This document shows positions 1,809-13,190 of a stretch of 64,000 bases of DNA, in pieces. Position 1 is the stretch's first letter. Each line of letters opens with the position of its first letter. The notes under the pieces were generated by a model that made no database searches, was not told the DNA's origin, and saw only the letters and a list, made by a program, of their open reading frames with translations. The translations under genes and the position numbers were made by a program. The stretch is from Gemmatimonadota bacterium (lineage in GTDB: Bacteria; Gemmatimonadota; Gemmatimonadetes; Longimicrobiales; Gaopeijiaceae): contig JAUIEJ010000012.1 in assembly GCA_030428885.1 (NCBI GenBank), positions 124,001 through 188,000 on the forward strand, given 5' to 3'.

Positions 1809-4223
1809 ATGATCCGCCGCCTTTTCCCGGTGCTCACCGCCCCGTTTCCCACCGCCGCCGGCGCCGTCGTGGCGGCCGCGTGCGCAGTGGGCGTGTCCGC
1901 CCTCGACGCCCACGCCCAGGAGCCCAACTTCGGCCGGGCCGTGGCCCTGACCGACGCCACCCTGGCCGTGGGCCAGCCCGTGAACTGGTACGGGCCGGGT
2001 GTGGTGTACGTATACCCGACGAGGGGGGCGGGGGAATGGGGCGATCCGACGCCCCTGACGGCGCCGGATTCGTCCCGGATGGACGACTTCGGGCGGGCCC
2101 TGGCCCTGGACGACGGCACCCTCGTGGTGGGTGCGCCCCGGAAGCGGGACGGATCGGGAGTGGTTTACACGTTCCAGCAGGAAGGGTCGGGGGTCGGGTG
2201 GTCTCTCGAAGCGGTGGTGGAGCCCGCCGGCGACGCCGACCACCGGGAGTACGGCGCGGCGTTGGCCTTGTCCGGCGACGATCTCCTGGTGGGCTCCCCT
2301 GCCGTGGACGGCACCGGCGTGGTCTACCACTACCGCCGGTCGAACGGTGCTTGGAGGCTGGCCCACACGATCCGGCCGACCCGAGGCGACGGGGCCGCCG
2401 CCTTCGGCAGCGCCCTGAGCTGGGACGGAGACGCCCTGGTGGTGGGGGCGCCCGCCGCCGATTCCCTTCGAGGGCGGGGCTATGCGGTGCCCCGGACCGC
2501 CGAGGGATGGGGGACGCCCCGGGCCCTGGAGCTTCCCCGGATCGATCTCGGGGGTCGGGCCGGCCTGGGCACGGCGGTGCTGGTGGTGGGAGACCGGGCC
2601 TACCTCGGTGCCCCGGGGGCCGGACGGGTCGTGCACCTGGCCCGGGGCGACGACGGAACGTGGGCGCCGACGGGCACGCTCCGCCCCCACGACGACCCCC
2701 CGGGATCGGGCTTCGGCATGGCCCTTTCGGGGACCGCCGACGGCCTCTGGGTGGGAGCCCCCGGGGTCGACGGCGGCAATGGCCGGGTCTACCGGTTCAC
2801 GCCCGACGGTCGAGGGGGGTGGCAGGGTGCGGAGCGCATCGATCCCGACGACGTGGAGGGGCGGTCGTGGCCCCTGGGCTTCGGCTACGCCGTGGCGGCC
2901 GCCGGCGACCGGGCCGTGGTAGGCATGCCCACCCGGGACTTCGGGGAGGGGCGGGCCATGGCCCTTCGGCGGGTCGACGACCGGTGGGAGTCGGCGGGGG
3001 TCCTGGAGGGACGGATCTTCCGCATCGGCTCCGAACTCACCTCCGGGGCCCGGTGCGAGAACGGAGCCATGACCGAGTTCCCGTGCTCCAATCTCGAGCT
3101 GGTGGCCCACGTCTCCATCGACGACCTCGGGGGAGATCGGGGCGCCTGGGTGAACGACGTCTGGGGGTGGACCGATCCGGACACGGGACGGCAGTACGCC
3201 CTGGTGGCCCGGCGTGACGGGGCCTCGTTCGTGGACGTCACCGACCCGTCGGCGCCCCGGGTGGTGGGCAACCTCCCCCGCACCGTGGGGTCGCGTCCGT
3301 CGGTGTGGCGGGACATCAAGGTCATCGGCACCACCGCCTACGTGGTGTCCGACGGCGCCGGGGCCCACGGCATGCAGGTGTTCGACCTGACCCGCCTGCG
3401 CGACGTGGCCGACGGCCCGGTGGACTTCGAACCCGACGCCACGTACCGGAACATGGCCAGCGCCCACAACGTGGTGGCCGACACGGCCAGCGGATTCCTC
3501 TACATCGTGGGCGCCAACAGCGGCGGCGAGACCTGCGGCGGCGGCCTCCACATGGTCGACGCCCGGGACGCCCTGAATCCCCGATTCGCCGGCTGTTACC
3601 ACGACACGGCCAGCGCGGGAAGTCGGGGCTACACCCACGACGCCCAGTGCCTGGTCTACGAGGGACCCGACCCGGACTACGGGGGGCGGGAGCTCTGCAT
3701 CGGGTCCAACGAGTCGGAAATCAACATCGCCGACGTCACGGACAAGGCGAACCCCGTGACGGTGTCGCGCATGAGCTACCCCAACGTGGCCTACGCCCAC
3801 CAGGGATGGTTCGACGAAGACCAGCGCTACTTCTACATGAACGACGAGGGCGACGAGGTGGCGGGCAACGTCGAACGCACCCGCACCATCGTCTGGGATC
3901 TCACCGATCTGGACGACCCGGTGGTGGCCAACGAATACCTGGGCCCGGTACCCGCCTCCGACCACAACCTCTACGTCGACGGCGACTACATGTACCAGTC
4001 GAACTACGGGAGCGGTCTGCGGGTGCTGGACATCAGCGACCGGGCCAACCCGGTGGAGATCGCCTTCTTCGACAGTGCCCCCTACAACGACGACGGGCCC
4101 GGATTCAGCGCGGCCCAGAGCGGGGCCTGGAGCAACTACCCCTTCTTCGGCGACGGTCTGGTCATCTTCACCAGCGTGCGCGAGGGGCTCTTCATCATGC
4201 GGGTGCGTCCGCCCATCAGTTGA
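1809..4223 (+). CDS. Secreted choice-of-anchor B family protein with N-terminal FG-GAP-like repeats
   Basis: Exported 804-aa protein. ATG at 1809 was chosen because it gives a signal peptide (MIRRLF, then an alanine-rich hydrophobic core ending near ALDAHAQEP); the reading frame is open further upstream but has no signal there. Residues ~40-400 contain repeated units of the type FGRALALDDGTLVVGAP / YGAALALSGDDLLVGSP, that is FG-GAP-like beta-propeller blades. The C-terminal half (from ~residue 440, with SRGYTHDAQCLVYEG, CIGSNESEINIADVTDKANP and LDISDRANPVEIAFFD) matches the choice-of-anchor B family with LVIVd-type repeats. It is probably a surface or periplasmic beta-propeller protein; ligand unknown. 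A GC-rich hairpin follows its stop. Confidence 0.85.
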   Translation: MIRRLFPVLTAPFPTAAGAVVAAACAVGVSALDAHAQEPNFGRAVALTDATLAVGQPVNWYGPGVVYVYPTRGAGEWGDPTPLTAPDSSRMDDFGRALALDDGTLVVGAPRKRDGSGVVYTFQQEGSGVGWSLEAVVEPAGDADHREYGAALALSGDDLLVGSPAVDGTGVVYHYRRSNGAWRLAHTIRPTRGDGAAAFGSALSWDGDALVVGAPAADSLRGRGYAVPRTAEGWGTPRALELPRIDLGGRAGLGTAVLVVGDRAYLGAPGAGRVVHLARGDDGTWAPTGTLRPHDDPPGSGFGMALSGTADGLWVGAPGVDGGNGRVYRFTPDGRGGWQGAERIDPDDVEGRSWPLGFGYAVAAAGDRAVVGMPTRDFGEGRAMALRRVDDRWESAGVLEGRIFRIGSELTSGARCENGAMTEFPCSNLELVAHVSIDDLGGDRGAWVNDVWGWTDPDTGRQYALVARRDGASFVDVTDPSAPRVVGNLPRTVGSRPSVWRDIKVIGTTAYVVSDGAGAHGMQVFDLTRLRDVADGPVDFEPDATYRNMASAHNVVADTASGFLYIVGANSGGETCGGGLHMVDARDALNPRFAGCYHDTASAGSRGYTHDAQCLVYEGPDPDYGGRELCIGSNESEINIADVTDKANPVTVSRMSYPNVAYAHQGWFDEDQRYFYMNDEGDEVAGNVERTRTIVWDLTDLDDPVVANEYLGPVPASDHNLYVDGDYMYQSNYGSGLRVLDISDRANPVEIAFFDSAPYNDDGPGFSAAQSGAWSNYPFFGDGLVIFTSVREGLFIMRVRPPIS

Positions 4224-6594: not shown

Positions 6595-7365
6595 TCAGAG
6601 GGCCGCGTCCAGGAGCCGCTGCTTGTACCGCCGGCTCACCCGGAGGGTGGCTCCGTCGCGGAGGACCGCCACGAGATCGCCCCCTCCCCAGGGCTCCAGG
6701 CGACGCACCTCGTCGATCCGCACCACGGTGGACCGGTGGATCCGGGCCCAGTCCCGGGGGTCCAGGCGCTCCAGGAGCGTGGACAGGGGGATCCGCACCA
6801 GGTGGTCTCCGGCCCGGGTGACCACCCGCACGTAGTTTCCGTCGGCGGCGAACCAGCGCACGTCGTCCACCGGCACGTACCGGGTCGTGCCCTGATCGTG
6901 GATGCCCAGCCGGCGCACGAACGGGCGCTCCAGTCGATTCCGGAGGCGGCCGATCTCGTCCCGGAGATCGCCCAGGGCCTCGGCCGTGACCCCGGTCCCC
7001 GTCCGCCGCCGGTCCAGGGCCCGTCGGGTGGCGGCCACCAGTCGGGGGTCGTCGAAGGGCTTCACGACGTAGTCCACGGCCGCCACGTCGAAGGCCCGCA
7101 GCGCCTGGGCCTCGTCGCCGGTCACGAAGATCACCGCCGGATCGCAGCAGGGGGCGGCCCGCCGGAGCACGTCGAACCCGTCGCCGTCATCCAGGTGGAT
7201 GTCCAGAAAGAGCACGTCCGGACGCTCGCTGCACAACGCGGCCACCGCTTCGTTGCGTGTCCCGCAGGCGCCCACCACCTCCACCGCGTCGAACCCGGCC
7301 AGCGCCGCCTCGATGCACTCCCGGGCGGTGGGGTCGTCGTCGACGATGAGAGCCCGGGCCCTCAT
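6595..7365 (-). CDS. LytTR-family response regulator
   Basis: Two-component response regulator (256 aa). The N-terminal receiver domain has the acidic pair in VDDDP and the phospho-acceptor D55 in VLFLDIHLDD, with K in YVVKPFDD. The C-terminal LytTR DNA-binding domain (~150-256) is shown by DDVRWFAADGNYVRVVT, the WARIHRSTVVRIDEV stretch, and RVSRRYKQRLLDA. Regulators of this kind bind direct repeats upstream of target genes. The ATG at 7365 overlaps the stop of the histidine kinase gene by 4 bases, so the pair is one coupled unit. The target is not apparent from the sequence. Confidence 0.93.
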   Translation of the reverse strand: MRARALIVDDDPTARECIEAALAGFDAVEVVGACGTRNEAVAALCSERPDVLFLDIHLDDGDGFDVLRRAAPCCDPAVIFVTGDEAQALRAFDVAAVDYVVKPFDDPRLVAATRRALDRRRTGTGVTAEALGDLRDEIGRLRNRLERPFVRRLGIHDQGTTRYVPVDDVRWFAADGNYVRVVTRAGDHLVRIPLSTLLERLDPRDWARIHRSTVVRIDEVRRLEPWGGGDLVAVLRDGATLRVSRRYKQRLLDAAL

Positions 7366-8510
7366 GCCAGGGGGATCCGGATGGTGACCACCGCGCCGCC
7401 CTCGGGTCCGTTGCGGAGGTCCAGGATCGCGTCGGATCCGAAGAGGTGGTGGAGGCGCCCCGCGGTGTTGGACAGCCCCACCCCGAAGTCCGGTCCATCG
7501 TCGGCGAATCCCCGGCCCCGGTCCCGCACCGACAGGACCATCTGGTCGCCGGCCCACACGGCCCGGATCCGGACGTCGATCCGGCCCCGGGCGTCGGCGC
7601 CGTGGCGCAGGGCGTTCTCCACCAGGGGCTGGAGGATCAGGCGAGGCACGGGCACGCCCTCGAGGCCCGGATCGACGTCCAGCTCCACCTCGAGCCGCCC
7701 GGCGAGGCGGATCCGCTCCACGGCCAGGAAATCCTCCAGGAGCCGGAGTTCGTCGGCCAGGGCAATGCGCCGGGGCGCCTCCCGGGCCACCACGGCTCGG
7801 AGCAGTCCCCCCAGGTGGGAGAGGGTGCCCACCGCTCCGTCGATGTCGCCCCGGCGCACCAGCGCCGACACCGACGTGAGGGCGTTGGAGAGGAAGTGGG
7901 GATTCAATTCCCGCTCCAGCGCCGCCAGGCGGGCCTCGGTGAAGGCCAGGGCGAGGTCCGACGCCTCCACGGCCAGCCGCCGGCTCGACTCCTCCCGGGT
8001 GCGCCAGTTCCGATGGAACGCTCGCGCCCACGACCACGCCACGATGAGCCCGTAGTTCGCCACGTTCATGAGGACGTAGTTGTGGAGGAACCCCCGGAAC
8101 CGCTCCCCGAACCCCATGCCCCCGCCCGCGTCCATGAAGGCGAAGATCCCGGCCATGGCCACCACGTGGGCCAGGGCCACCGCCGTGCCCACCCCGAGAT
8201 GGACCGGGATCACCTCGGACCACGGGCGCGAGGCCGGAGACCATCGCCGGGTGGCGAGGAGGATCGCCGGAGTCAGGGCCACCCACGCCCCCCACCAGAT
8301 CCCCACGTCCACCACCCACGCCGAGTGGGGCACGGGCGCGCCCAGGAGCTTGTCCACGCCGAGGCGCAGGGCGTGGAGGGTCGCCATCACCCCCCAGATC
8401 GCCAGGGCCTCCCGGGTGTCGTCGATGGCGCCGCCGCCGGCCTCCGGAACGGTCCGGGGCTCGGCGGCGGGGAGCACCAGGGTGTCGGCGGTTGCGGTTC
8501 GACTGCTCAC
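7362..8510 (-). CDS. LytS-like sensor histidine kinase
   Basis: Membrane sensor kinase (382 aa) of the His_kinase (PF06580)/LytS type. Start is GTG at 8510 with a GGATCCTCCC-like ribosome site. Four hydrophobic segments lie in ~35-175 (ALAIWGVMATLHAL, VVDVGIWWGAWVALTPAILLA, GVGTAVALAHVVAMAGIFAFM, VLMNVANYGLIVAWSW). The phospho-acceptor box is ERELNPHFLSNALTSVSAL with H205, a variant of the usual LQPHFLFN. The ATPase domain shows LILQPLVENALRHG (N box), RDRGRGF and GVGLSNTAGRL (G boxes). The partner is the LytTR regulator immediately downstream. No periplasmic sensor domain is evident, so sensing is probably by the membrane helices. Confidence 0.93.
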   Translation of the reverse strand: MSSRTATADTLVLPAAEPRTVPEAGGGAIDDTREALAIWGVMATLHALRLGVDKLLGAPVPHSAWVVDVGIWWGAWVALTPAILLATRRWSPASRPWSEVIPVHLGVGTAVALAHVVAMAGIFAFMDAGGGMGFGERFRGFLHNYVLMNVANYGLIVAWSWARAFHRNWRTREESSRRLAVEASDLALAFTEARLAALERELNPHFLSNALTSVSALVRRGDIDGAVGTLSHLGGLLRAVVAREAPRRIALADELRLLEDFLAVERIRLAGRLEVELDVDPGLEGVPVPRLILQPLVENALRHGADARGRIDVRIRAVWAGDQMVLSVRDRGRGFADDGPDFGVGLSNTAGRLHHLFGSDAILDLRNGPEGGAVVTIRIPLA

Positions 8511-8589: not shown

Positions 8590-9951
8590 TCAGCCCCGGG
8601 CGAGCCAGTCGTCCAGCATGGCGCTCGTCACCGGCCCCAGCTCGACCCGGCCCTCCAATGCGTCCCGAACGAGCCTCCGTCCCCGGGCGCGCTCCCCCGC
8701 CGCCGCCAGGATCAATCCCGCCCGATAGAGCACCTCCGGGGTGGGGGCGCCCCAGGCCAGGGCCCGCTCGGCGTCGGCCGCGGCCTCCTCGGACCGCCCC
8801 ATGGTGTGGAGCACCCATCCGCGGGTGACCCAGGCCATGCGGTCCTGCCGCTGTTCGAGGTCGGTCTCCGCCAGGCGAAGCGCTCGTGGGCGCGTGGCGG
8901 GATCGTCGGACAGGAGGAGGGCGAGGGGGCGCCGGTACAGGCGCTCGGCGGCGGAATCGGCCGTGGCCCGGGCCATGAACGCCGAGCGCAGCGAGTCGGC
9001 GGCGGCCGAATCCCCGGTGGCGTCGGCGATCTCCGCCAGTACGCCGTACAGATCCAGATGGCGCCCGTGGTCCAGCGCCGCTCGGTAGAGCCGCTCCGCC
9101 GCCGCCGTGCCGCCGTCCACGCCGTACGCGATGGAGGCCAGACCTTCCAGAGCGGCGGGATAGGCGGGGATCAGGGCGAGGGCTTCGTGGAACCGCGCCG
9201 CCGACCGCTCGGCCGATCCCGAATGGAGAAGAAAGTGGCCGTGCTCCACCCGGGCCCACGCCCGCACCAGGGCCGGCTCGGCCCAGGCGTCGGTGAGCTC
9301 CACCACCCGGTCCATGATGGCGGCGGCCCGATCCACGTCTCCCAATCCGTCGATGAGCCGCGCTTCCCGGGAGAGATGGAGGATCGACTCCCGTTCGGGC
9401 GTGAGGCCTTCCAGGAGTTCCCGCGCCTCGGCATAGCGGCCCGAGGCCCACAGGGCGTCGAACGCGCCGTAGGCGCCGCTGTCGTCGGAGGGGTCGCCCA
9501 GGCTGCGCCGTCGACTCGCGGCGTCCAGCGCTCCGGGGAAGTCGTGCCGGGCCAGGGCCAGGGAGGTGCGCAGGGACCACAACGAGGCGTCGCCCGTGTG
9601 CCGTTCGGCGAGCCGGTCGAGGTAACCGGCGCCGAGGACGAGTTCCTGCGGGTCTCCCCATGCCCGGAACCGCATCTGGTGGAGCGCGGCGAGCCGGCGC
9701 AGGGCGAGGACATCGGTGGGGTCGAGGGCGAGGCGCCCCTCGAAGAAGGCCCGTTCGTCGGCCCGGAGTCCCTCGGGTGCGGGTGTGGCGGCCAGGACCC
9801 TCTCCAGCGAGGAATCGGGGACCAGGACCGAGGGCACCTCCGTGTGGCTGGGACTCGACCGGGTGAGGAGCAGGGGGATCACGGCCAGGGGAAGGAGGAG
9901 GGCCCAGCGGAGGGCCCGGGTTCGGGTCGTCGGGGCGGCGGTGGATTCCAC
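8590..9951 (-). CDS. Membrane-anchored TPR protein
   Basis: 453-aa protein with an N-terminal membrane anchor or signal (ALRWALLLPLAVIPLLLTR, residues ~14-32) followed by tetratricopeptide-like helical pairs throughout. Repeats such as DPTDVLALRRLAALHQM, DASLWSLRTSLALARHDFPGALDAASR and DRMAWVTRGWVLHTMGRSEEAAADAERALAWG are visible. It probably scaffolds protein interactions on the periplasmic side. It follows the two DUF4331-type genes on the same strand with about 100 bases of spacing. In my recollection DUF4331 genes are often followed by TPR genes, so a shared role is plausible but inferred. A GGAG ribosome site lies upstream of the start. Confidence 0.8.
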   Translation of the reverse strand: MESTAAPTTRTRALRWALLLPLAVIPLLLTRSSPSHTEVPSVLVPDSSLERVLAATPAPEGLRADERAFFEGRLALDPTDVLALRRLAALHQMRFRAWGDPQELVLGAGYLDRLAERHTGDASLWSLRTSLALARHDFPGALDAASRRRSLGDPSDDSGAYGAFDALWASGRYAEARELLEGLTPERESILHLSREARLIDGLGDVDRAAAIMDRVVELTDAWAEPALVRAWARVEHGHFLLHSGSAERSAARFHEALALIPAYPAALEGLASIAYGVDGGTAAAERLYRAALDHGRHLDLYGVLAEIADATGDSAAADSLRSAFMARATADSAAERLYRRPLALLLSDDPATRPRALRLAETDLEQRQDRMAWVTRGWVLHTMGRSEEAAADAERALAWGAPTPEVLYRAGLILAAAGERARGRRLVRDALEGRVELGPVTSAMLDDWLARG

Positions 9952-10055
9952 GGGGGACTCCGGATCGGGAGGATGGGCGGCAGCGGGAGAGGACGACGAG
10001 GGTGGCCCCGGCCGCGATACGTCGGTCGCGACCGGGGCCGAACGCCTCGGGGCCG

Positions 10056-10859
10056 TCAGTTGTTCGGCATCGCCAGGTAGGGGAAGCTCCCGAGGAAGGC
10101 GACGTCGTTGGCGTCGACGTTGTCGCTCTTCAGGCTCTCGATGCCCACGGTGACGCTGAGGGCCACGTCCACGGCGTCGTCGGCGAGGTCGCGGCCCGTG
10201 AGGGTGGCGAAGCTCGTCTCACCGGCCAGACTCACCGGCAGCGCGTCGGGAAGGAGCAGGGCCGCCGTGCCCGAGGGATCGGGGTTGGCCACGGCCCCGA
10301 GCACGGTCTCGAACCGGCCGGTGTAGGTCGCCAGATCGTCGGCCGGGGACGCCGTGTTGTAGTCGACCTTGCTGAAGGCCGGCGGGTGGTTGAACACGGT
10401 GTTCAACGCCGGGATGCCGATGCGGTCCACCTGGCGGTAGACGTAGTCGGCGCCGGTGCCCGCCAGGGCCACCATGACCGCGTCGCCCCCGGTCACCGGA
10501 ACGTCGAGTTGGGCCGAGGTGGGACCCGCGGAGACGGGATCGAAGATCAGACCGATCTCCAGGGTGGCGCCGGCGGCCAGGGTGGTGAGGCCCGGCGCGC
10601 CGTCGAGCATGAAGGCCGCGGCACCGCTGCCCGACACGGAGGGCGCGCCGAGCATCACCGACTCGGATCCGGTGTTGGTGAGAGTGACGATCCGGGTCAT
10701 GCCCGGACCGAAGTCCACGTCGAGGGCGCCGAAGTCCACCGACATGACGTCGGCGTCGACCATGGGAGCCACCGGCCCGACGGTGTCGTCGTCGCAGGCC
10801 GTCAGCGCGGCCACGGTGGCGAGGGCGGCGAGGGTACGGAACAGAGGAGAGGTCTTCAT
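10056..10859 (-). CDS. DUF4331 C-terminal half fused to a choice-of-anchor D (HYDIN-like) domain, lipoprotein
   Basis: 267-aa predicted lipoprotein. ATG at 10859 was chosen over an upstream ATG because GGAG lies 9 bases before it and the sequence begins with a clean signal peptide and lipobox (MKTSPLFRTLAALATVAALTAC). Residues ~35-125 form an Ig-like choice-of-anchor D/HYDIN domain (MSVDFGALDVDFGPGMTRIVTLTNTGSES). The remainder (VYRQVDRIGIPALNTVF... and the end LKSDNVDANDVAFLGSFPYLA) looks like the C-terminal half of DUF4331. The N-terminal half of that family is carried by the gene just upstream, 59 bases away on the same strand. Function of DUF4331 is unknown to me. Confidence 0.75.
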   Translation of the reverse strand: MKTSPLFRTLAALATVAALTACDDDTVGPVAPMVDADVMSVDFGALDVDFGPGMTRIVTLTNTGSESVMLGAPSVSGSGAAAFMLDGAPGLTTLAAGATLEIGLIFDPVSAGPTSAQLDVPVTGGDAVMVALAGTGADYVYRQVDRIGIPALNTVFNHPPAFSKVDYNTASPADDLATYTGRFETVLGAVANPDPSGTAALLLPDALPVSLAGETSFATLTGRDLADDAVDVALSVTVGIESLKSDNVDANDVAFLGSFPYLAMPNN

Positions 10860-10918: not shown

Positions 10919-11653
10919 TCATTGGCGCACACCGGTGGTCGCCCACGCGAAGAAGGCGTCGGAGGGGCCGATGCCCAGGGCGCCGGCCACCTGCGACTTC
11001 GGCACCTCCACCACGATGGCGAGGGTGTTCAGCCCGGCGAGGTCGTCGGTGGCGTCGGGGTTGAACTCGAGGGACTGCTCGTCGTCGGCGCCCACCTGTT
11101 CACCGAGGGCGGCGCCGAAGGCGGCGTTGAGCACGCTGGTGACGCTCCGGTCGCCGAACAGATCGATGAAGAAGGGGTCGTCCCGGGGACCGGCGAAGAT
11201 CGAGGTGCCGCCCTGGACCACGGTCTGGTCGAAGGGGGCGCGGATCGAGGGTGCCGATACGACCCCCATGGTCGTCGCGGTGGTGGCCACGGGCCCTCGC
11301 ACGTCGACCATCTGGTCCGTGCCCGACCCGAGGAAGGCCACCTGGATCACGGCGTCGGCGACGCCGTCCCGCTCCCGATCGAGATTGAACTGGTAGAGGC
11401 CCTCGGGATTGAAGGCCGCGTCGGCGGTGGCCTGCCCCGGCGCCAGCAGGGGCGACACCGTGAGGGCGAAGACGAGATTGTCGCCCCGGGCGAAGACGTA
11501 GAGGTCGTTGGCGTCGAGGTTGCCTTCGGTGGTGTCGGGCGAGTCGGCGTGGTCGGCGGCGCGCACGTCGAGGTTGGCCGCCACCACCACCCCGCCCACG
11601 GCGAGGATCCCGAGGGTGGAGCGGAGCAGGAACTGCGAGGGGTTGCGTGGCAT
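10919..11653 (-). CDS. DUF4331 N-terminal-half protein, exported
   Basis: 244-aa exported protein with signal peptide (LRSTLGILAVGGVVVAANLDVRA, cleavage near residue 33). The mature start ADHADSPDTTEGNLDANDLYVF is the DUF4331 hallmark (family proteins begin SSHREAP/ADHxDSP ... DxxDLYxF). FNPEGLYQFNLDRERDGVADAVIQVAF fits the first half of the family and may bind calcium through its Asp-rich loop. It ends near where full-length DUF4331 proteins continue, and the missing half is encoded next door. A candidate ECF promoter shared with the sigma factor gene (CAATCC, 17 bases, CGTA) sits 36 bases upstream, which suggests control by the neighbouring sigma/anti-sigma pair. Confidence 0.8.
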   Translation of the reverse strand: MPRNPSQFLLRSTLGILAVGGVVVAANLDVRAADHADSPDTTEGNLDANDLYVFARGDNLVFALTVSPLLAPGQATADAAFNPEGLYQFNLDRERDGVADAVIQVAFLGSGTDQMVDVRGPVATTATTMGVVSAPSIRAPFDQTVVQGGTSIFAGPRDDPFFIDLFGDRSVTSVLNAAFGAALGEQVGADDEQSLEFNPDATDDLAGLNTLAIVVEVPKSQVAGALGIGPSDAFFAWATTGVRQ

Positions 11654-11688
11654 GGTGTAGCCTGGGTTGGGGTTGAGTTCACCCTGGC

Positions 11689-11715
11689 TACGTCACCGCC
11701 CCGCCGAGCGGATTG
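11689..11715 (-). promoter_or_regulatory. Candidate ECF sigma promoter for the DUF4331 genes
   Basis: On the minus strand CAATCC (11710-11715) is followed by exactly 17 bases and CGTA (11689-11692), 36 bases before the ATG at 11653. The same pattern, CGATCC-N17-CGTA, lies upstream of the ECF sigma gene at 13164-13190. Two matching, correctly placed elements next to one sigma/anti-sigma pair make an autoregulated ECF regulon plausible. Only two examples support it. Confidence 0.55.
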
Positions 11716-11725
11716 GAACGCGGCG

Positions 11726-12499
11726 TTACTGCTGCGCCCACTCCCCCACGAGGAAGGGGGTGGAGGTGGGTTGGGCCGAGCCGCCTTCGGGCTCTTCGGT
11801 GATGGCGCCCACCGCGAAGGTCGATCCCTCCGGCGCCGACGTCCGCAGCAGGGCGGTGCCCGCCGCCGTCGTCTGGAAGGTGCCGAGGCTCACCGGATCG
11901 CCGCCGTCGGGAATGCCCCACAACTGGTAGATCCGGCCCACGGGCGCCGGAGGCAGGTCGAAGGCCGCGATGACCACGCTGCCCGAGGCCACGTTGTGGA
12001 AGATGCGGGCCGCGGGCAGCTCCTCGGTGCTCACCAGCGTGGTGGAGCGCACGTCGGGGCCCAGGAAGGCGGCCAGCAGGGAGTCCCGGGAGGCGATCTC
12101 GGCGGACTGGGCCGCCACCTGCTCGTCGGACCGCTCCAGGGCGGCTTCCAGCGACGCGCGGCTCTGGAGGAGCTGCCGGTTCGCGAGGCCGAGGGAGACG
12201 GCGGCCACCACGGCGGCGGCGGCCAGGTACCAGGGAAGCCGGGAGGGCGGTGGCGCCGGGGCCGGGGCCATGGGGCGCACGGCCCGGGCCTCGCTCATGA
12301 CCCGGTCCCGCAGGGCCGACGGCGCCGAGCGACGGGGCACGGCCTCGGCCAGGAGTCCCATGGCCTCCCGGTAGCTGTCCACTTCGGCCCGGAGAGACGG
12401 ATCCCGGGCCATCCGGGCCTCGAAGGCGCGCCGCTCGTCGGCGTCCAGGGCGTCGAGGACGTAGGCGGCCGCCAGGTCCGCCCGGTTCGGTCCGTTCAT
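11726..12499 (-). CDS. Anti-sigma factor, RskA-like
   Basis: 257-aa membrane-bound anti-sigma factor. The N-terminal cytoplasmic zinc-less anti-sigma domain (~1-85, with DLAAAYVLDALDADERRAFEARMARDP) is followed by one transmembrane helix (LPWYLAAAAVVAAVSLGLA, ~108-126). A coiled-coil-like stretch comes next (LLQSRASLEAALERSDEQVAAQSAEIASRDSLLAA). The periplasmic RskA C-terminal domain carries the family motif YQLWGIPDGGDPVSLGTF. It would hold the adjacent ECF sigma factor at the membrane until a signal triggers release, usually by proteolysis. The start overlaps the stop of the sigma gene by 4 bases (ATGA). Confidence 0.92.
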   Translation of the reverse strand: MNGPNRADLAAAYVLDALDADERRAFEARMARDPSLRAEVDSYREAMGLLAEAVPRRSAPSALRDRVMSEARAVRPMAPAPAPPPSRLPWYLAAAAVVAAVSLGLANRQLLQSRASLEAALERSDEQVAAQSAEIASRDSLLAAFLGPDVRSTTLVSTEELPAARIFHNVASGSVVIAAFDLPPAPVGRIYQLWGIPDGGDPVSLGTFQTTAAGTALLRTSAPEGSTFAVGAITEEPEGGSAQPTSTPFLVGEWAQQ

Positions 12500-13086
12500 G
12501 GCGAAGCCCTCCGAGCCGCGGCCAGCTCCCGGAGCTTGTTCATGCCGTCCCGCAGTCGCGTCTTCACGGTGCCCAGGGGCTCGGAGAGACGGTCGGCGAT
12601 CTCGGAGTGGGTCAGTCCCTCGAGATAGGCGAGGCCGATCACGGCGCGCTGCTTCTCCGTGACCTGGGCCAGCACCTCGTGCACCCGCTCCCCCGCCTCG
12701 CTCATCTCGGCGGCGCGGTCGGGGGCCGGCATCGGCGAGGCCAGGGGCACGGTGAGTCCGGCCGGATCGGCCTCGGCTCCCTTCTCCTCGCGCCGGCGCC
12801 GGCGCCGGTCGGCCCGGCGCCGGTCCAGGGCGCGGCTCCGGGTGATCATGACCAGGTAGGCTCCCACGCTGCCGCGATCGGCGTCGTGGTCGCGGTCGCG
12901 CCAGAGGCGAAGAAAGGCGTCGGCCACCGCCCCCTCGGCGTCGGCGGGATCGTCGACGATGGCCGCAGCGAGGGAGAACAGGCGATCCACGTAGCGGTCG
13001 TACAACTCGCCGAAGGCCCGCTCGTCACCCGCCCGGACCGCAGCCACCAACGCGGCGTCGGATCGTTCAGCGGACGCCACGGGCAC
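12496..13086 (-). CDS. ECF RNA polymerase sigma factor, SigK-like
   Basis: 196-aa ECF sigma factor. Region 2 is seen in AFGELYDRYVDRLFSLAAAIV and DAEGAVADAFLRLWRDRD. A basic linker (RRRADRRRRRREEK) and region 4 helix-turn-helix (QRAVIGLAYLEGLTHSEIADRLSEPLGTVKTRLRDG) follow. Start is GTG at 13086. It is coupled to the RskA-like anti-sigma gene, the arrangement of the SigK/RskA (ECF19-like) type. A candidate promoter of the same sequence class as the one in front of the DUF4331 gene lies about 77 bases upstream, suggesting positive autoregulation. Confidence 0.93.
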   Translation of the reverse strand: MPVASAERSDAALVAAVRAGDERAFGELYDRYVDRLFSLAAAIVDDPADAEGAVADAFLRLWRDRDHDADRGSVGAYLVMITRSRALDRRRADRRRRRREEKGAEADPAGLTVPLASPMPAPDRAAEMSEAGERVHEVLAQVTEKQRAVIGLAYLEGLTHSEIADRLSEPLGTVKTRLRDGMNKLRELAAARRASP

Positions 13087-13163
13087 CGCCGGGAGTGGAT
13101 GGACTGACCAGGCATGCGACCGAACTCGTGCTGAGCGGGAAGGCGTCCTGCGGACATTCCAGG

Positions 13164-13190
13164 TACGTCCCCACGCGACCGATCGGATCG
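13164..13190 (-). promoter_or_regulatory. Candidate autoregulatory ECF promoter upstream of the sigma factor gene
   Basis: Minus-strand CGATCC (13185-13190), 17 bases, CGTA (13164-13167), 77 bases before the GTG start. It matches the element in front of the DUF4331 gene at five of six -35 bases, all four -10 bases, and spacer length. Confidence 0.5.

Follow-up and report, generated by a model that had tools for sequence, protein, structure and literature searches.

SigK of Mycobacterium tuberculosis belongs to the ECF18 group of sigma factors, and SigK of Yersinia enterocolitica to the neighbouring ECF19 (PMC7509140). Y. enterocolitica carries a minimal mpt83-sigK-rskA cassette with a SigK site upstream of mpt83, and the genomic sigK copy of M. 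tuberculosis is autoregulated (PMC7509140). Two conserved cysteines are required for SigK activity; 94% of ECF18 members and 56% of ECF19 members have them (PMC7509140). Here we describe a locus in a 64-kb stretch of Gemmatimonadota DNA (64,000 nucleotides, hereafter the window) that, judged from its sequence, probably (at roughly 0.85) encodes an autoregulated, membrane-gated ECF switch of the SigK/RskA type with a DUF4331-N/DUF4331-C/TPR operon as its local output. DUF4331 proteins are widespread exported proteins without an assigned role, and a search of CC-licensed PMC main text returned nothing relevant on DUF4331 or PF14224; a conserved promoter together with a candidate regulator offers a direct handle on them.

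The genes lie on the minus strand in the order sigma, RskA-like anti-sigma, DUF4331-N, DUF4331-C lipoprotein and TPR protein (Table 1). The sigma factor matches Sigma70_r2 (residues 28-96) and Sigma70_r4 (138-187), both above cut-off, and thus has the make-up that defines ECF factors, namely sigma2 and sigma4 domains only within about 200 aa; an alternative in-frame GTG start at 13080 aligns with the ATG of a relative. The anti-sigma matches RskA_C at 1.4e-21 (77.6 bits, cut-off 29.4) and exceeds the cut-off of the antisigma equivalog NF052375, and its RskA_N match, at 23.7 bits, stays under the cut-off of 27. Two adjoining genes score above cut-off against the 421-position profile PF14224, each covering a part of it: DUF4331-N, which apparently carries an N-terminal signal peptide, and DUF4331-C, which covers profile positions 368-421 and has a choice-of-anchor-D-like region (choice_anch_D, 3.7e-10, under cut-off). 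We infer that DUF4331-C starts at MKTSPLF; the ORF listing puts the start at 10946. This division of DUF4331 into an exported N-terminal and a lipoprotein-like C-terminal gene recurs in nearly all relatives.

Table 1. Predicted genes and promoter elements of the window, and elements at Ferritin_2 genes of related loci
Feature	Position	Strand	Basis or remark
ECF sigma factor, SigK-like, 196 aa	12496..13086	minus	Sigma70_r2/r4
Membrane anti-sigma, RskA-like	11726..12499	minus	overlaps sigma stop; RskA_C PF10099
DUF4331-N, exported protein with N-terminal part of DUF4331	10919..11653	minus	PF14224 5.1e-19
DUF4331-C, predicted lipoprotein with C-terminal part of DUF4331	10056..10859	minus	PF14224 2.5e-9
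TPR protein, third gene of presumed operon	8590..9951	minus	TPR matches
Sigma-gene promoter CGATCC-GATCGGTCGCGTGGGGA-CGTA (-35/-10)	13164..13190	minus	predicted, N17
DUF4331 operon promoter CAATCC-GCTCGGCGGGGCGGTGA-CGTA (-35/-10)	11689..11715	minus	predicted, N17
Element at Ferritin_2 gene	L272 8214-8239	+	
Element at Ferritin_2 gene	L273 8067-8092	+	
Element at Ferritin_2 gene	L274 4536-4561	-	
Element at Ferritin_2 gene	L277 4818-4844	+	

A TPR gene is found 3' of DUF4331-C in 75 of 87 loci, and the TPR protein of the window matches the profile built from those proteins with 264 bits (1.3e-82). TonB-dependent receptor genes are also frequent in DUF4331 loci (43/87). In the window the TPR gene is followed on the same strand by genes for a LytS-type histidine kinase and a LytTR response regulator (6595-8510, minus), and in about 20 Flavobacteriia-type loci a LytTR/kinase pair lies some 4-5 kb upstream of DUF4331. 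In one Roseivirga locus a small histidine-rich protein is encoded between the TPR gene and the TonB-dependent receptor gene (L070 10614-10985, plus strand), a hint of metal handling. Structure prediction gave no usable functional lead for the DUF4331 proteins. The DUF4331-N model (mean pLDDT 75.8) has no Foldseek match at E <= 0.001, and its best VIA-align hits are immunoglobulin-like beta sandwiches whose top Z of 5.8 is not above the background level described for the tool; in a profile search, DUF4331-N matched solved structures only at E >= 0.07, which we treated as noise. The DUF4331-C model (pLDDT 57) is too poor for use.

An earlier note on this DNA had proposed two promoters, CGATCC-N17-CGTA upstream of the sigma gene and CAATCC-N17-CGTA upstream of DUF4331-N, and both are present on the minus strand exactly as described, with the same spacing. 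The distance that it gave from CGTA to the sigma GTG at 13086, 77 nt, is correct, and the distance to the DUF4331 ATG at 11653 is 35 nt rather than 36. The second site falls between the anti-sigma stop and the DUF4331-N start. CRATCC-N17-CGTA matches the window at these two positions and nowhere else, against 0.08 matches expected from dinucleotide shuffles, and two matches at once occurred in 0 of 100 shuffles of the window; the pattern was picked after the sites had been seen, so that this enrichment overstates its significance. Directly after CGTA, four own-family DUF4331 leaders (window 11640-11690, minus; L026, L027 and L028) read GGGUG, which can pair with a downstream CACCC or ACCC, so that the presumed 5' end would form a hairpin; the gain in folding over shuffles is only modest (z -0.9, -2.3, -1.4 and 0.05).

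The conservation that the earlier note wanted checked in related promoters is clear, in orthologous as well as distant loci. DUF4331 genes are sparse in the family, being found in only 5 of 96 sampled genomes. In the same-genus genome G004, whose sigma, anti-sigma and DUF4331-N are 81%, 75% and 91% identical to those of the window, both promoters are kept with N17 spacing; in the same-genus locus L025 the conserved sigma promoter, CGATCC-N17-CGTA, lies at 3336-3362. In G070, from another genus (sigma about 45% and DUF4331-N 61% identical), the five genes stand in the same order and CCATCC is found at both promoters, with N17 at the sigma gene (L026 about 10015-10041, minus) and N16 at DUF4331, and in G038 and G036 the DUF4331 site is CAATCC-N16-CGTA. 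From these variants we take the core to be ATCC-N16/17-CGTA, with the preceding base free. The G070 sigma gene contains an early in-frame TAG (L026 about 9780; G070:C4:109307-109855), which points either to an error in sequencing or to a disrupted gene.

With the -35 block relaxed to A[TA]CC, the element precedes DUF4331-N in all five own-family loci (shuffle mean 0.01) and at 10 of 13 genes in the sister family (shuffle mean 0.12), where the core motif also precedes 4/4 nearby sigma genes; a fresh set fetched later from other families of the class yielded the motif at 19 of 20 DUF4331 promoters. Across Gemmatimonadota, ATCC-N16/17-CGTA is present at 36/40 non-redundant DUF4331-N genes and at 20/25 related sigma genes, in both cases essentially at spacings 16 and 17 only. 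In the background, made up of 4916 windows tiled over these loci with the true sites left in, 65 windows contain it. Some sigma-gene sites lie a long way from the start codon, 184 nt in L028 for example, and a few could be fortuitous.

A scan of 84,980 species genomes returned 80 DUF4331 loci, mostly from Bacteroidota and also from Gemmatimonadota, Balneola and two Fibrobacteres-labelled MAGs. After deduplication of this wide set, A[TA]CC-N16/17-CGTA is found in 65 of 72 DUF4331-N upstream regions (shuffles: mean 0.49, maximum 3). The only peak of the spacing spectrum is at 16-17, other spacings not being enriched. Among loci below 55% GC, almost all of them from Bacteroidota, the motif precedes 69/79 DUF4331-N genes and 6/7 neighbouring fasciclin genes, 4/553 unclassified other genes, 0/74 DUF4331-C genes, 0/36 anti-sigma genes and 1/40 sigma genes; for Bacteroidota sigma genes of the wide set the count is 0-1 of 35.

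In all 44 loci that share sigma and DUF4331 the -35 variant matches the type of the sigma recognition helix. AACC promoters are accompanied by GT[VI]KT[RQH][NS]R[NK]C (25/25) and ATCC promoters by GT[VI]K[STG]R[LIAM][RK] (19/19). This covariation represents one clade-level change, a single event with AACC confined to Flavobacteriaceae-type loci, and is consistent with recognition of the element by the sigma factor while falling short of proof; the shift from ATCC to AACC together with the helix makes sigma/promoter co-evolution testable here. Second ECF genes, in the loci that have one, mostly match the sigma profile much more weakly. Among 154 genomes of the order, a sigma homologue is present in 13 of 17 DUF4331 genomes versus 7 of 137 others (Fisher p 6e-11) and an anti-sigma homologue in 12/17 versus 5/137 (p 1e-10), both tests ignoring relatedness. 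In the four sampled same-genus genomes that lack DUF4331, sigma and anti-sigma are likewise absent at the thresholds used.

The two sites could in principle be a chance pair in GC-rich DNA, picked post hoc. A genome-wide search, which the earlier note had put forward as a check, was done by pattern matching alone, and the exact pattern turned out not to be specific: the complete 5.39-Mb genome has CRATCC-N17-CGTA at 19 places, many of those outside the window intragenic, within reading frames with coding-type GC3 signal, and the variants CNATCCG-N16-CGTA and CNATCCG-N15-CGTA occur 14 and 8 times in genome G000, near the roughly 10 per spacing that we estimate simply from base composition. Conservation nevertheless refutes chance, to which we assign a negligible probability, since the element recurs at most Gemmatimonadota DUF4331-N and sigma promoters at essentially two spacings, far above the tiled background, and does so across phyla. 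Exact-motif counting was dropped as a regulon finder, its counts being near chance and many sites intragenic, and a candidate site that precedes an MbnP lipoprotein gene of the same genome (L014) by about 190 nt was attributed to chance, as it is not kept in the same-genus orthologue.

Sequence conservation by itself does not identify the protein that binds, and the element might be a transcription-factor operator or a housekeeping promoter; we regard this as very improbable, because two blocks 16 or 17 bp apart have the geometry of a promoter, the element is nearly missing from the remaining genes in its loci, and the sigma factor's own gene bears it, with a -35 block that covaries with the sigma4 helix. 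Less improbable, though still unlikely, is the proposal that a genuine ECF promoter at DUF4331 is mainly read by a paralogous SigK-like sigma factor, the adjacent one being one of several that overlap. Several sister-family genomes have two or three close sigma homologues, the element precedes the sigma gene in 11/11 Gemmatimonadota sigma loci without adjacent DUF4331 and also a Ferritin_2 gene in four of these, and a sigma gene lies within 8 kb of DUF4331 in only 38 of the 80 wide loci, so that a different sigma could be acting in the rest. This proposal is countered by the window genome, in which a single sigma homologue passes E 1e-25, by the G070 cluster, in which both promoters have shifted jointly to CCATCC, and by the co-occurrence of sigma and DUF4331 across genomes.

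We favour the switch operated by the adjacent pair, and infer that it may work as follows. The RskA-like anti-sigma would hold the sigma factor at the membrane until an envelope signal frees it, and the freed sigma would recognise (C/A)NATCC-N16/17-CGTA at two promoters, one driving transcription of sigma and anti-sigma as feedback, and the other a separate transcript for exported DUF4331-N, the DUF4331-C lipoprotein and the TPR protein. The earlier suggestions of an autoregulated sigma/anti-sigma switch and of DUF4331 as its output are both supported by the conservation of the two promoters, the 16/17 spacing, the co-occurrence of sigma and anti-sigma with DUF4331 and the -35/helix covariation. 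In these data autoregulation appears to be a Gemmatimonadota trait, most Bacteroidota sigma genes having no motif. The support does not extend to a dedicated output, as had been proposed, since outputs vary from taxon to taxon: fasciclin and Ferritin_2 genes share the promoter type in relatives, and two fasciclin genes of this genus have a related sequence.

Seven Bacteroidota loci have a fasciclin gene in the DUF4331 neighbourhood, six of them with the same promoter; these genes, of the MPT70/83 family, may link the DUF4331 systems to SigK/RskA. The fasciclin genes checked in the window genome all lack the CGTA form of the element. Two fasciclin genes of the genus, L283 (G000:C13:199755) and L282 (G004:C1:1764735), have a conserved GCATCC..CGAAC, which might be read by the same or another sigma factor; they share GCATCCGATTCGCCGA..CGAACCCC about 60 nt before the start, and this may be a SigK-type promoter whose -10 is CGAA. 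Four sigma/anti-sigma loci of the own or the sister family, none with DUF4331 alongside, have the element ahead of a gene that encodes an exported Ferritin_2 protein (Table 1; two of the four genes were checked against Pfam). Like the DUF4331 leaders with their GGGUG, the Ferritin_2 promoters read CGTA..GGGTGA. Taken across phyla, we lean, by a modest margin over even odds, towards a SigK-like switch over an exported module (DUF4331-N, DUF4331-C lipoprotein, TPR protein and often a TonB-dependent receptor) that is common to Gemmatimonadota, Bacteroidota, Balneola-type and Fibrobacteres-labelled genomes. DUF4331 would then be among the main physiological outputs of the sigma clade, and fasciclin and Ferritin_2 proteins would stand in for it or be added to it.

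How closely does this locus resemble the SigK systems? Against solved structures the best match of the window sigma is M. tuberculosis SigK (4nqw, 82 bits; the next scores 60), and in NCBIfam it scores higher with PRK12519 (162 bits, cut-off 222) than with SigK PRK09646 (132 bits, cut-off 226), both below cut-off. RskA_C is found in the window anti-sigma and in two Bacteroidota partners. The anti-sigma N-terminus, ADLAAAYVLDALDADERRAFEARM, is similar to the helix 1 and helix 2 consensus of AS19-1 (class I, ECF18/ECF19), HTLAGAYALDAL and LDDERAAFERHL (PMC7406223). This protein has no cysteine, and the usual zinc site is therefore absent. The window sigma contains no cysteine at all and so lacks the SigK pair, which is not universal in ECF19. 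Given the missing pair and the sub-threshold RskA_N match, we describe the locus as working like SigK/RskA and do not claim membership. The -10 of M. tuberculosis SigK is CGAA-like, unlike the CGTA of the window. The two systems have in common a sigma factor closest to SigK among solved structures, an RskA_C anti-sigma and, as predicted for the window, local exported outputs and autoregulation, and they differ in the output: MPT70/MPT83, of the fasciclin family, in M. tuberculosis, and the products of DUF4331-N, DUF4331-C and the TPR gene in the window.
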